NCBI GenBank assembly: GCA_015146655.1
Contig: VKHL01000016.1
Coordinates: 233,050-297,049 of the forward strand
Direction of reading: 5' to 3'
Origin: Ochromonas danica
Taxonomy: Eukaryota; Sar; Chrysophyceae; Chromulinales; Chromulinaceae
DNA: 64,000 nt
The notes under the pieces are model-generated. The model searched no databases and had not been told where the DNA came from. It was given only the letters and a program-made list of their open reading frames with translations. This document shows, in pieces, positions 2,072-42,694 of this stretch. The position numbers and the translations under genes were made by a program. The stretch's first letter is position 1; every line of letters starts with the position of its first letter.

Positions 2072-4827
2072 ATGAGAGCTCGAAAATGCTGGCCATTTTT
2101 TGTTGAGTTTACCTGTGGTATTTCATGTATTCTTTTTGGCTGCAGTCAAGTCAATGAGGGCAATCTGTCAGTGTTATCTTATCGGTTTGGAGATAAACGC
2201 AGCCTGTCCGATGGAGGATCGGAGTCACTCTTTGGAGCAATGGAAACCATCGAAGGCAAAACGCTCATGCTCTCCTTGTTGATCATTGTTGGAGGCGTTT
2301 TGTGCTTGGAATCCATTTTCCATGCTCTCCATCACTTTACCTTGGAAACGGCGTTTAATGATGTGGTCATTGCCATCGAAAAGGAGCTGATGGTTGTTGG
2401 ATGCACTGCGTTCATTTTTAAAATTGTTATTAATACACAAACCCAGCTGTCGCATGAGTTTTATTTCGCGTTGGAGTTTTCAGATCTCTTAGTACCTTTC
2501 TTTTCCTTCGCTAATTGTTTATTGTCCTTGATTCTTATCTTCATGTCCTTATTGCAATGCGAGACGTGGCGGAAGTCTTATCACTTGAAGCTGGAAGAGC
2601 TGTTGGACGAGTTCATTCGAGAAGATGGAAACTATTTCTTTATGTAAGTTTGGTATTCAGATTCGTGATATTGTGCTAATGGACTCACTCTGTTGCCAGG
2701 AAATTATTTGCTCCCTTTAGTCGAATTGTGTCAGAAATGGAATTTCGTGTCTTCTATGATATTTTTTGTGAATCTTATCGCATTCAACGCAATGCTTTTG
2801 CCTTCGATGAGTATGTCTCTCTTGTCTATGAAAAGTTTTCGTTGCATATAATTGAGCTGGGCTTATTGAACTGGATGCTCTTCCTGGCATTAATGCTGCT
2901 GTCATTAACCCAACTTGGCACGGACAGTCATTTTCAACACTGTGATAAGCATGACTCTAGCTGTGAGAATAGTCGAGGCATTTTGATCTTTAATGTTCTT
3001 GGTGCGGCTATGTTCGCACTTTTTTTGGGGTTTGCAGTCTTGTCTCGATATTATGAGACCTCTATCATAGCTTCTCGTGGCGTGCGCAGTATTGAAGACT
3101 ATATTGAATTTTTGCAGCGAACGGAGGAAGTTGCTCAAACAACTGTGGAGAGGAAGCGCCTCAACGAAGAAGAGTTGAAGAGAGCAGTCAAAGAGGCTCT
3201 CACCTCAGTATCAAGTCATCCTGCTCACAATATCCAAAGTAAGCTTTAATGTTGTATGAAATTATGCTGTTGACACACATTTACAATATTTTCCTTTCAA
3301 TTTTCGAGACAGAGGCGTTCAGATATTTGTTCGGTATGGTGGAAACCTTCGAAACAAACATGAGTGCCAAAATCATGCCGACAAAAGATGATGATGGCGA
3401 AGATTTATTGAAGGCTGCTATTGCCAAGTCCGTGAAGCGCGGATCGATTCTTTCTAAGAATTACGACTCGGACGGTTCTAATCATCATCTTCCGGAAGAT
3501 GGCCAGGAAAATCGCCCTTTGAGTTTGAATAGCTCTGGTGTTCATGGACATAGTTATACACCCTTTGATAGTCCCTCGGCTCAACATGGGTGTAATGAGT
3601 GTCTTGTGTGTCCAGATCCGGCAGAATTACTTTTCACCCTCCCTCTTGTTCTGCCAGATTCAACAAAGAAAGAAGGAGTCGAAGAGGAGATACATAATGA
3701 TCGAGAGGCATCGAGCCAATGTCCTGAAATCACCAAGAATCCACTTCCCATTCCGGGTGAAGAGGAATCACTTGAAAATGCAATGGGGCCATTGGCTTCT
3801 GCGTCGAATTCTCAGCCTGGCTCCGCACTACAGACAAGAGATTTATTCAACAGTGCTTTACACCACGAAGCAAACCGCCATGCTCAGTAAGTATGTCCTC
3901 ACGGGTATTTATTGCGTTTCTTATTCTGTTGATACTCATGCTTAGAGATACTCCGAATCTTAAAGTAGCGACAGATATAAACAATTTCACTTCCAGACGA
4001 CAATCACTCGAGAGCGCACAACGGACATCAGTTTTGGGTGCTGTCATGGACAACATTTTCCATCGTCGTCAAATAGGTGCTCTTGATGATCTTTTCTTCT
4101 TATCTCGACCAGGGCTGTATTTCGATATGGTGAGATTGTTGCCTTTAGCTCTTTCTCTTTACATCGCTCTTTGGTGTGTCCAGTACTGTGCCTTGAAAAC
4201 CCAAGGGTTGTACAAGTTCCTCTCCGCAATGCCAGCTGTTCTCAGCATTTTCTGCTTGATATACACTGTGAAATGTGCTGCTTTGCTCAAAGCAATATAT
4301 CATATTGACAAAGACGCAATGCTTGAAGTTTTGGAGCAGGTATGTAATGTACTCTTGTTCGGTCATATATGTTCAATTGAAAACCAAGGCTCAATGTTTA
4401 GACGGAAGGTAGTCGTCTACTTGGAGAAACGATACGAGAAAAGTTACTTTCCAAACTTGATCTCATGGGGGATCCCTATTCTGAGTTGCGCAATCTCTTT
4501 CGTTCAATAGACTTTGATCATTCAAACCGACTAAGTCGACTAGAATTTGAAATTCTCATGGACAAGCTGGATATTAATTTCAGCAAACGCAAATGGAAGC
4601 AAATTTATCATGAGATCGATAGAAATTATGATGACGAAGTTTCGTTCGATGAGTTCTTTTTCTTCCTGTTCCCCAATCACGATGTATCGGTTGCAATGGA
4701 AAGAAAACGCTTGAAGATCATTCGGAGACGTGTTGCTGCAAAAACTGTCGTTGCGAGGCAAAGAACCAATCAGAATCGTGCCAGTACTTATGCTACTCTC
4801 AGTGGAAAAGAAGTTGACGCTAAGTGA
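2072..4827 (+). CDS. MLO-family membrane protein with C-terminal EF-hand pair
   Basis: Exons 2072-2643, 2700-3238, 3313-3886, 3946-4339 and 4402-4827 join in phase to 834 residues. After a signal-like N-terminus (residues 1-24), the segment at about 58-110 (E-x-KT..., S-I-F-H-A-L, then AIEKELMVVG) matches the start of plant MLO proteins. Further membrane segments follow, with an MLO-like FDEYVSLVYEKF...W region before the third pair. A long acidic or low-complexity loop is encoded by exon 3. The C-terminus has two canonical EF-hand loops: residues 730-741 (DFDHSNRLSRLE) and 766-777 (DRNYDDEVSFDE). Plant MLO proteins bind calmodulin in trans and have been reported to act as calcium channels. 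Here calcium sensing appears built in. The MLO assignment rests on motif recall and topology. The start at 2072 gives a good signal peptide; an in-frame ATG also lies at 2039. Confidence 0.75.
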
Positions 4828-39733: not shown

Positions 39734-39945
39734 GCACACGGTATTTTGGCCTCTAGAAGTCACCCCACACGTGGTTTTCGTTTTCGGGTGGAAAAAACAG
39801 TTTCTATCCCTATTCAATCCCCATTCCTTGCGAAAGAAACAGTTTTTGGCCTCTGGCAAAGGTGATGTTTCGTGTGGCACACGAAAACCGAATACCACGA
39901 GCGGGGTGACTTCACGATTCTGAGTGGGGGCAAAATACCGTGAGC
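39734..39945. mobile_element. Small inverted-repeat element (MITE-like), CACGGTATTTTG family
   Basis: The left end reads GCACACGGTATTTTG (39734-39748) and the right end CAAAATACCGTGAGC (39931-39945), an inverted pair with one mismatch. A second inverted pair lies inside: GAAGTCACCCC at 39756-39766 and GGGGTGACTTC at 39903-39913. The element is 212 bp with no coding. A related end occurs at 21432-21472. I cannot see a clear target duplication. Confidence 0.75.
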
Positions 39946-40229
39946 AGCTAGGGTGGTTCCAGGCCCGGGCGCCCTGAGCCCAGTCGTTTTGTGCTGTCCG
40001 CTTTCGCTTGCCATAGGCCCATGGGCCTGTGGGCGCCCAAAAGTGGGCGCCCAAATGGCCAGCCAAAGGGGACACAGCACAAAACGGAACGCGCGCCAAA
40101 TTCACCAAAACAGAAAACCGGAAAAAAGCCTAACAAACAATCCACCCAAAAAGTTGAAACCACATTGATTGATGCGAAACACTTGCTGATGCTTTCCAAT
40201 TACCAATTCATTTGAAGAAAGCATAGGTG

Positions 40230-40560
40230 CTGATGATATAATTCAAACTTTGAAGAGAAAGGTCGAAAACGATTCCATCCTTTCCCTCCAGGCCATCGCT
40301 TGGACTATCGTCCTCCTGCTTTCATGTTGTAGTCAAGAGAGTGTCTCTTTCCATTATCTCTGATGCTCTTCATTCTCAAGGTAAGTCAGTAAGTCAGTCT
40401 ATCAGTCTATCAGTCATCATCATCATCTTGGAAACAACGAGTGTGATGGGGTTGTGATGGGGTGGTACTAGTGCTAATGCTAATCTCTTTCTCTTGTTGT
40501 GATTGTATTGTGATAGGTCAAGGCACTTTACTTGCTCTTTGACTACTTCTACAACTGTTT
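40230..40560 (+). pseudogene. GT31 (core-1 galactosyltransferase-like) fragment, left copy, broken
   Basis: Reads outward-to-inward on the plus strand: EEKGRKRFHPFPPGHRLDYR, then a deletion of about 55 bp relative to the right copy that shifts the frame, then the remains of SQESVSFHYL. An intron-like segment begins at GGTAAGTCAG (about 40380) and ends at GTGATAG (about 40517), followed by VKALYLLFDYFYN-type coding. It lacks the CCS codon frame and the upstream catalytic domain, so it is dead. Confidence 0.65.
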
Positions 40561-40582
40561 GGTCTGGACAAGGAGGAGGAGA

Positions 40583-41522
40583 AGATGAGATGTTGTTATA
40601 TATAGTCTTGAAGGTCATTTGTATGCTTTGCTTTAATGACTAGCTACATATTTAAGTCTTGCCTACACCAAGATGTTACTCTTATTAGTCAGGTCACTGT
40701 GAGTGACTTGATAGGCAGTAAGCCACGCTACTGTAAGTAAACTAACTAGCAGGAGGACGAAGGCAGGAGAGTCAGCAGAAGCCTTAGCACTCCACGATGC
40801 GCCGCTGCTATGCTAGGATAGTCAATCCATGCTGTTCCTCATCGGACACGATGATATCTATATCATGATAGTCAGATGGAAGCGGTAGGATGTGAATGCC
40901 AGTGCAATCTTGGAGAAGGTCGTTAAGGTCTTCATCATCGCCAGGGATGAGGGAGTCGAGTAGTAAATGGAGAGAGATCCTAGACACAAAGCCAGAAGCA
41001 CTAGCATACCGCCACCACTAGCCATGGGTTCGATTAATTGGCAATGACTGGAAGAGAAAGAGGGAGGGGGAGAGTTTTGCCTCATATATAGCTTAGTCTT
41101 GATCATAGTCAGTCATAACCAGAGGAGGAGGAGGAGGAAGAAGGGTGATGACTGACCTTGGATACGAAACACAGTCCAAAGCGTAATGCTAATGCCACAG
41201 AAGATAAGTAAGGAATATATTTCATTCACTTCCTCAAAAGAGTGCAAGCTATTACATAATATAACATAATCCACAATAGAAGACGGTATGTGGGAAGGAG
41301 AGGAGAGCTCCACATCCTGCACGAAGACAAAGGCCAGTGTGGTGCAGATGCCGTAAGAAGAGACTCGCCCAGCAAGGATTGCAAGTGCGACACATTCGCT
41401 CCTCGATGACTGACAAGTCTTCATCAGATGGGAAGACTAACTCCAACAAGACAATCAAGCGGCTGTATATCTTTCTCGCAGAATCAAAAGGAGGAAGAGG
41501 ACTCCATGAGAAGTACCACTCC
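40583..41522. other. Spacer between the inverted arms
   Basis: About 940 bp between the two arms. Short open frames exist on the minus strand: one (41106-40858) has a hydrophobic stretch MLVLLALCLGSLSIYY, and an overlapping frame encodes an acidic segment IPGDDEDLNDLL. Neither is recognised. They might be other pieces of the captured gene, such as a type II membrane anchor, but this is not supported by motifs. Confidence 0.4.
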
Positions 41523-41544
41523 CTCGTCCTCCTACTTGTCCAGA

Positions 41545-41925
41545 CCAAACAATCATTGTCCTCGACTTGGACAGTTGTAGAAGTAGTCAAAGAGCAAGTA
41601 AAGTGCCTTGACCTATCACAATACAACCACAACAAGAGAAAGAGATTAGCATCAGCATTAGCACCACCCCATCACCACCCTACTATCACACTCGTTGTTT
41701 CCACGATGATAATGATAATGATGACTAACTAACTAACTGACTTACCTTGAGATAATGGAAAGAGACGCTCTCTTGACTACAACATTCAAAGTTCAGCTTC
41801 AATCTGTCTCCACTATACTTGGCATACCAATCTTCTCCATGGACAGGAGGACGATAGTCGAAGCGATGGCCTGGAGAGAACGAATGGAATCGTTCTCGAC
41901 CTTTCTCTTCAAAGGTTCAATCATA
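41545..41925 (-). pseudogene. GT31 (core-1 galactosyltransferase-like) C-terminal fragment, right copy
   Basis: On the minus strand the frame reads GRERFHSFSPGHRFDYRPPV, later W-Y-A-K-Y, and then ECCSQESVSFHYLK. This matches the end of C1GALT1/Fringe-type GT31 enzymes, where G-x-E-x-F-H-x-F-x-P, W-x-x-x-Y and CCS...SFHY are conserved. An intron-like segment (GTAAGTCAGT near 41746 to GTGATAG near 41614 on this strand) joins to VKALYLLFDYFYN and a stop. Upstream in the same frame a TGA blocks the reading, and the DxD catalytic region is not found. It is a captured gene fragment, not a full enzyme. Confidence 0.7.
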
Positions 41926-42115
41926 CCGTCAGCACCTATGCTTTCTTCAAATGAATTGGTAATTGGAAAGCATCAAAATGATTTTTCCTCCTCTCGATTT
42001 GGGTGCAGCCTTGATTTTGGCGCCAAGCCTTGATTTTGGATTTGGCGCCCCGCATCTGGATTTTGTGCTGTCCTCTTTGGGCGCCCCTAGGCCCACAGGC
42101 CCAGGCCCAAGGGCC

Positions 42116-42291
42116 TACATTCACCACATAGAAAGCCAGATTACCGGAAAGGCGCCAGATTACCAGATCGGGCCCCACTGTGGAAACGCAGGCCCATATG
42201 GCAACGAACGCCTGTGCGCCAAAATCCGGAAGCAAGCCAAATCTGGGCGAGAGGGCCTGCTAAGCCCACTGGGCGTGGGCCTAGGCCCACG
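42116..42291. repeat. GGCCCA-rich boundary region
   Basis: Repeated GGCCCA/TGGGCC hexamers (for example near 42171, 42191, 42253 and the palindrome GTGGGCCTAGGCCCAC at 42275-42290) lie between the inverted duplication and the next element. They resemble the GC boxes at 40013-40085. They could be part of the duplicated element or TGGGCC-type promoter boxes. Confidence 0.45.
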
Positions 42292-42551
42292 CCCCGCATG
42301 AGTCGAGTCGAGTCGAGTACGGCGAGTACCGTGAGTCCCGGCGAGTACTTCTGTGTGGATTTGAAACTCACACTTTTAGACTTTGTTGCGAGAATTTAAT
42401 TCGAATATTATTCGTAAATTCGGGAATTCGTAAATTCGGGAATATTCCTGAGTACTCGAAATCCCAGAACTCGGGACTTGGGACTCACCACTGGGACTCA
42501 TCGAGTCCCTGGAAGTCGAGTCCGCGAGTCCGGGACTCGACTCATGCGGGG
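42292..42551. mobile_element. 260-bp MITE-like element with 18-bp terminal inverted repeats
   Basis: The left terminus CCCCGCATGAGTCGAGTC (42292-42309) is perfectly repeated in inverse at 42534-42551. The interior is packed with GAGTC/GACTC units in both orientations, so a long snap-back structure is likely. It has no coding capacity. It ends about 143 bp upstream of the PITH-domain start codon and may lie within its promoter or leader. No clear target duplication is seen. Confidence 0.8.
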
Positions 42552-42694
42552 TGTGCCTGAACCACCCTAACAGCAGCAGCCGTCACAGAGAAGGTTCCTG
42601 CGCAAACAATAATACTTCCCCCGCAACATCATCATCTCCACAACAATCACAGGAAACAAAGAAATTCCTCGTTTCGCGATCACCAGCTTTGAAG

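Follow-up and report, generated by a model that had tools for sequence, protein, structure and literature searches.

A 64-kb stretch of the Ochromonas danica genome (the whole of it, 64,000 nucleotides, is called the window here) holds a non-autonomous DNA transposon, most likely of IS3EU type. In the history that we consider probable, an IS3EU-type element captured the ends of two convergent genes, one of them a GT31 gene, duplicated the GT31 part in inverted orientation and then spread, with a diverged homologue of the resident locus as donor. A sequence-only reading had placed the feature at 40013..42115; the feature itself stands, with limits that have to be widened to about 39949-42569 (Table 1).

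Table 1. Features of the foldback element and of the MITE that hosts it (window coordinates unless a contig is named)
Feature	Position	Strand	Details
Host MITE end piece, family A, TAGGGTGGTTCCAGGCC..	39949..39985	-	matches C113 A positions 229-265
Outer terminal inverted repeat, ending GCCATA	39985..40015	.	97%/35 bp to C40 left end, 92%/36 bp to right end
Target duplication GGCCCA, first copy	40016..40021	.	undivided site in other MITE copies
Host MITE piece, inverted relative to outer MITE ends	40016..40054	+	score 80 (40/40) to C131 A positions 168-207
Inner subterminal repeat, ATGGCCAGCCAAAGGGGACACAGCAC..	40055..40100	.	40056-40100 matches C40 6057-6019 at 78%
Left arm	40187..40580	+	transposase remnant, GT31 exon end (~53-bp deletion, 17-bp insertion), intron 40381-40516, last exon (22-bp deletion)
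Captured neighbour gene, last-exon piece	40808..41017	-	50 codons aligned to C5 neighbour
Captured neighbour gene, further coding part, gapped	41122..41540	-	blastn 41122-41329 and 41478-41536 to C5; tblastn-type E 3.3e-16
Right arm, inverted GT31 copy	41514..41975	-	last exon 41553-41612, intron 41613-41745, exon end 41746-41907, then transposase remnant
Inner subterminal repeat, right end	42052..42080	.	100%/29 bp to C143 relative
Host MITE piece, inverted relative to outer MITE ends	42078..42197	+	99%/120 bp to C131 and C122; A positions 56-175
Target duplication GGCCCA, second copy	42191-42196		at end of MITE piece 42078..42197
Outer terminal repeat, degraded, starting TATGGC	42197..42241	.	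42203-42231 and 42216-42241 match C40 ends at 87-92%
Host MITE start piece	42237..42290	-	A positions 5-58 of C131
Very end of host MITE, ..GAACCACCCTA, beyond nested insert	42552..42569	-	22-bp local match to A positions 1-23
Host MITE family copies	C131, C122, C113, C37, C171		region search

The inverted duplication comprises a left arm (40187-40580) and a right arm (41514-41975) in opposite orientation, separated by a spacer of ~930 bp, close to the ~940 bp first claimed. Its arms pair at 90-97% identity: 92% for 40187-40318/41844-41975, 97% for 40324-40360/41749-41785, 90% for 40374-40558/41571-41752 and 96% for 40556-40580/41527-41551. The first three pairings are the sole inverted matches in the full 64-kb window (word 11, E ≤ 1e-5). 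As RNA, 40186-41975 has a predicted folding energy of -847.3 kcal/mol, compared with -503.5 on average (sd 13.3) across 24 dinucleotide-shuffled sequences, and its predicted fold contains 345 arm-to-arm pairs, in line with the hairpin capacity that had been proposed. A chance inverted repeat was rejected on the fold lying far below the shuffles and on these being the only strong inverted matches in the window. An assembly artefact, which the sequence-only reading had named as a possible refutation, is unlikely, because contig C40 carries the same foldback at a second site with other flanks.

Both arms hold a GT-AG intron at the matching place (40381-40516 and 41613-41745, the latter 133 bp), as had been read from the letters. 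The C1GALT1-type C-terminus recognised in the right arm (41728-41916, minus strand) is borne out through its homologue: the 63-aa piece alone matched no Pfam family, and on contig C5 the corresponding exon, which is complete, matches C1GALT1 chain 7q4i (E 1.9e-34), with an alignment reaching through the C-terminus in question; against Pfam Fringe the C5 homologue gave E 0.0052, below the family cut-off. Left-arm damage, earlier described as a deletion, consists of an exon deletion of ~53 bp, followed by a 17-bp insertion, and, in the last exon, the loss of a further 22 bp.

The spacer between the arms is not filler. It matches C5 in order and on a single strand, with window 40462-41025 aligning to C5 4277-3623 (blastn E 1.8e-63) and further matches at 41122-41329 (E 3.0e-16) and 41478-41536 (E 1.2e-8). 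On C5 the GT31 gene looks intact and has a convergent gene downstream, a 556-aa open frame with no Pfam match, and the protein parts matched in the spacer are those of this neighbour. Because the spacer keeps the order of C5, one stretch over two gene ends was taken up, with the GT31 part re-added in inverted form; the joint of the inverted copy can be placed near 41514-41540, a segment that matches both parts. As judged from these alignments, the captured DNA comprises the 3′ end of a C1GALT1-like gene and the 3′ part of its convergent neighbour, in C5 order. Capture of a GT31 fragment was thus read correctly, but the second captured gene was overlooked. When read through, the neighbour-gene part at 41122..41540 in the window shows a frameshift and 5 stops, whereas the C40 copy of this coding part is open over 185 aa; the damage to the window copy is later decay.

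With the region as query, the 31.2-Mb assembly yielded 26 matches, located in the window and on C40, C203, C5, C55, C9, C131, C122, C113, C37 and C171. The entire foldback is present on C40 (96% identity over window 40945-42064, 77% over 40211-40755), and one arm only on C203, where no outer transposon ends were found within the stretch compared. The match on C55 (L012) covers ~165 bp of intron and exon bits in unrelated surroundings, on which account a second GT31 gene there was rejected; that on C9 spans 65 bp, and those on the remaining five contigs are short, GC-rich copies of a MITE. The intron of the C5 GT31 gene (L011, about 4330-4460) holds a MITE-like stretch, GGTGGTTCTAGGCC..GGCCTGGAACCACCCC, which is absent from all captured copies. 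Elsewhere in the assembly there are two different rbcL genes (L027 on C193 and L028 on C289), one of which may, at a guess by eye, come from a bacterial companion of the culture. Red-type rbcL, 47 matches to light-harvesting proteins and a window LHC nearest to fucoxanthin-chlorophyll proteins indicate a heterokont-like alga of the red lineage.

The C40 unit is bounded by a 31-bp inverted repeat starting TATGGC (93.5%), and the window outer ends are of the same type (TATGGC..GCCATA), with one copy at 39985-40015 and a degraded one at 42197-42241. Both are flanked by GGCCCA, a 6-bp target site duplication, and the corresponding empty site is seen undivided (GCAGGCCCATGGGC) in four of five other MITE copies (C131, C122, C113 and C37), with one mismatch in the fifth (C171). 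The GC-rich flanking boxes noted earlier are real, but of two kinds, host MITE pieces and transposon terminal repeats. Several points tell against our main explanation: the C40 insertion flanks (GGTGCG/GGGCCG) agree at 4/6 positions, giving no clean target duplication; ends of this family are scarce (6 places when up to 3 mismatches are allowed, against none in a reversed-pattern control); and in the window both outer repeats, with the MITE pieces beside them, run opposite to the MITE ends and the interior, an arrangement that a simple insertion leaves unexplained. A pair of later inversions, broken within the subterminal repeats, would produce the window order.

Several smaller elements lie near these features or share their ends. 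Beside the host MITE is a small MITE-like insert (window 39736-39945; inverted ends 39756-39784/39885-39913, 86%; start about CACGGTATTTTGGCC), and within the host MITE remnant a nested GAGTC-rich insert occupies 42288-42555, with 22-bp inverted ends (95%). On contig C17 (L019, 80500-89500) the transposon end occurs twice, at 2334 and 6166, within a large tandem repeat of ~3.8 kb.

Adjoining the C40 foldback is a 305-aa open reading frame that matches the rva_4 integrase core at E 4.4e-43 over profile positions 1-125 of 194. No other rva_4 match turned up in the genome, and we infer that rva_4 is the IS3EU transposase domain. Homology in this frame ends, and non-homologous residues start, where the captured DNA begins. 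The truncated protein matches the NCBIfam IS3 transposase at E 6.7e-9, below cut-off, and the second acidic residue of what we take to be the catalytic motif seems replaced. An intact transposase was not found in the genome, and the C40 protein had no relatives among viral contigs and no real match in the PDB. An in-frame fusion of transposase and GT31 was rejected, as the C40 frame crosses GT31 in another frame. Remnants of the same transposase part lie in both window arms (in the left arm, contig C16 273254-273370), in the C40 right arm and on C203, so transposase and GT31 DNA were joined once, before the copies split. The window element itself retains only these short remnants and is non-autonomous.

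Comparison of the two foldbacks orders the later events. Their left arms share the ~53-bp deletion, the junction that follows it and the 22-bp deletion (with five extra bases in C40), and their right arms have 9 changes in common that are absent from other copies. Since these are common to both insertions, the inverted duplication preceded their spread and predates the divergence of the window and C40 copies. Divergence since then is uneven. The left arms are 83% alike, and the left halves show ~84-99% identity per 75-bp segment over aligned bases, with many gaps, while the right halves are more alike: the right arm is 98.2% identical to that of C40 (86% to C203), and 41380-41754 is 100% identical over 375 bp. 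Right halves closer to each other than the left halves suggest conversion, recombination or exchange between copies. Outside that 375-bp run, other parts of the window and C40 (L009) copies differ by up to 10% or more.

In the window the insertion is flanked by two divergently oriented genes, one of ribosomal L15/L27A type and one with a PITH domain, and on C40 it lies ~200 bp upstream of a P-type ATPase start. The C40 element sits between P-type ATPase coding stretches (L009, 1-1283 and 6325-8499), which share a long identical segment, i.e. they are a tandem duplicate.

An intact GT31 gene with a matching intron position had been predicted to exist elsewhere, and the genome-wide search with the region found it on C5; direct capture from that gene, however, is probably wrong as first stated. 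Between the captured copies the GT31 codons show no constraint: dS is 0 for window versus C40, dS 0.13 and dN 0.10 for window versus C203, and dS 0.13 and dN 0.08-0.10 when either foldback is compared with C203 (5 synonymous and 13-15 other changes). Against C5, changes are mainly synonymous, with dS 0.63 and dN 0.09 for GT31, 1.41 and 0.28 for the first part of the neighbour gene, 0.43 and 0.18 for its last-exon part, and 0.83 and 0.19 for all 217 codons pooled. Neutral decay of a direct C5 copy would give dN of at least dS/2, assuming equal rates. The pooled dN - dS/2 is -0.22 (95% CI: -0.41 to -0.10), and a direct neutral copy was allowed by 1/5000 bootstraps pooled, 8/5000 for GT31 alone and 10/5000 for the first neighbour part; for the last-exon part alone it was not rejected (1690/5000). 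The alignments of C5 to the captured neighbour contain 12 gaps (7 and 5), across which homology stays in frame.

C5 thus does not look like the direct donor. Because divergence from C5 is mainly synonymous and that between copies unconstrained, the captured DNA probably derives from a homologue of C5 that had diverged from it while still functional, and that is lost, unassembled or foreign. A foreign origin, with the gene ends captured in another species and brought in by horizontal transfer with the transposon, is a tentative and rather unlikely version of this; it is suggested by captured exons that resemble a functional orthologous locus (dS ~0.4 to 1.4, low dN/dS) in copies that are themselves little diverged. 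The C5 GT31 protein had no relatives among the viral contigs compared.

Unlikely, too, is a plain old capture from resident C5, with C5 since evolving fast and the captured copies slowly, which would make a further donor unnecessary. Among the best candidates scored in the assembly, only C5 carries a near-complete GT31/neighbour locus, it agrees with the captured DNA in gene order and intron place, and the neighbour's last exon taken alone is compatible with direct copying. This reading has to accommodate the negative pooled statistic, with a single bootstrap in 5000 at or above zero, and the 12 gaps across which the reading frames remain homologous. Unequal mutation rates, or ancestral selection on the captured piece, are a possible alternative to a separate donor.

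With a diverged homologue as donor, an IS3EU-type cut-and-paste transposon would have taken up a chromosomal stretch with the tails of two convergent genes, and the final third of the transposase domain would have been cut off at the capture joint. Uptake may have proceeded through tandem or nested elements that were aberrantly excised or repaired; one source (PMC13317346) proposes capture via tandem elements and aberrant excision, a model with which the doubling of the end repeats here, inner and outer, would agree. A second, inverted copy of the GT31 part would then have been added beyond the neighbour-gene fragment, perhaps by strand switching during repair, creating the foldback interior. 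The chimera with TATGGC..GCCATA ends would have moved to at least two places, and because no intact transposase was found, we infer mobilisation in trans for the later moves. The window copy would have landed in a GC-rich MITE, duplicating GGCCCA, and the element is now decaying.

Published marks of IS3EU elements are TA..TA ends and 6-bp target duplications (PMC10045372 section 3.3); a second source gives the same marks and describes IS3EU elements carrying whole passenger genes in fungi (PMC12730594). The ends TATGGC..GCCATA at C40 and in the window follow this pattern (TAYGG..CCRTA in rust fungi), and the terminal repeat of ~30 bp (31 bp and 93.5% at C40) is a further likeness; the 6-bp duplication at the window and the IS3-like integrase-core transposase of the C40 copy are partial ones. 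Unlike known elements, the transposase here is truncated, the C40 copy has no clean 6-bp duplication, and the interior is a foldback of captured gene ends and not a whole passenger gene.

PMC8903248 describes Pack-TYPE elements as belonging to plants and to the main class II superfamilies. Like Pack-MULE and Pack-CACTA, the window element is non-autonomous, has terminal repeats and a target duplication, holds captured gene fragments with exon and intron between its terminal repeats and exists in several copies, counting the window and C40 foldbacks, the single arm on C203 and the short fragment on C55. It differs in superfamily, in a host that is no land plant, in a captured piece that covers two convergent genes and is inverted-duplicated, and in a donor that is not a resident gene in its present form. 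The earlier suggestion of a Pack-type element is thus supported, although it missed the IS3EU-like ends, the rva_4 transposase on C40, the second foldback insertion and the host MITE. Titles and abstracts from a partial coverage of the IS3EU, GingerRoot, Pack-TYPE, diatom-transposon and Pack-MULE literature mention no such element.

A hairpin feeding RNA interference is structurally possible in principle. Maize Mu killer-type loci contain an inverted copy of transposon or gene sequence and can form a long hairpin. The window locus resembles them in this respect and differs in being itself mobile and in being known from sequence and predicted fold alone. That it is a functional hairpin locus, transcribed, diced and regulating the resident GT31 gene or its neighbour, seems highly improbable to us. 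The strong predicted fold, 68 21-mers common to both arms, 39 foldback positions identical to C5 locus DNA over 21 nt and two Piwi-family matches in the genome (one with two in-frame stops) would be consistent with it; some of the 39 positions fall in the intron, the window and C40 arms have drifted apart, the captured coding parts are unconstrained between copies, and comparison of the copies gave no sign of captured pieces being kept for a use. With the window insertion between divergent genes and the C40 insertion so close to a gene start, an effect on neighbouring promoters is just as plausible a guess.

Least tenable of all, and largely refuted, is a segmental duplication with later inversion but no transposon, the terminal repeats being incidental neighbours: the rearranged ends at the window and the single-arm C203 copy could be read this way, but two insertions with unrelated flanks have the same ends, the C40 transposase frame is fused to captured DNA, transposase remnants recur in the window and C203 arms, and a 6-bp duplication with an empty site argues against it.

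The best-described cases of gene capture by cut-and-paste transposons are the Pack-TYPE elements of land plants. If the reading given here is true, it would extend gene capture to a photosynthetic protist and to an IS3EU-like element, in a case that combines capture of two genes with an inverted duplication made before the element spread. The divergence signal separates capture from a resident gene from capture of a diverged homologue, and comparing dN with half of dS is a cheap test that may be applied to other captured fragments in a search for foreign gene pieces.
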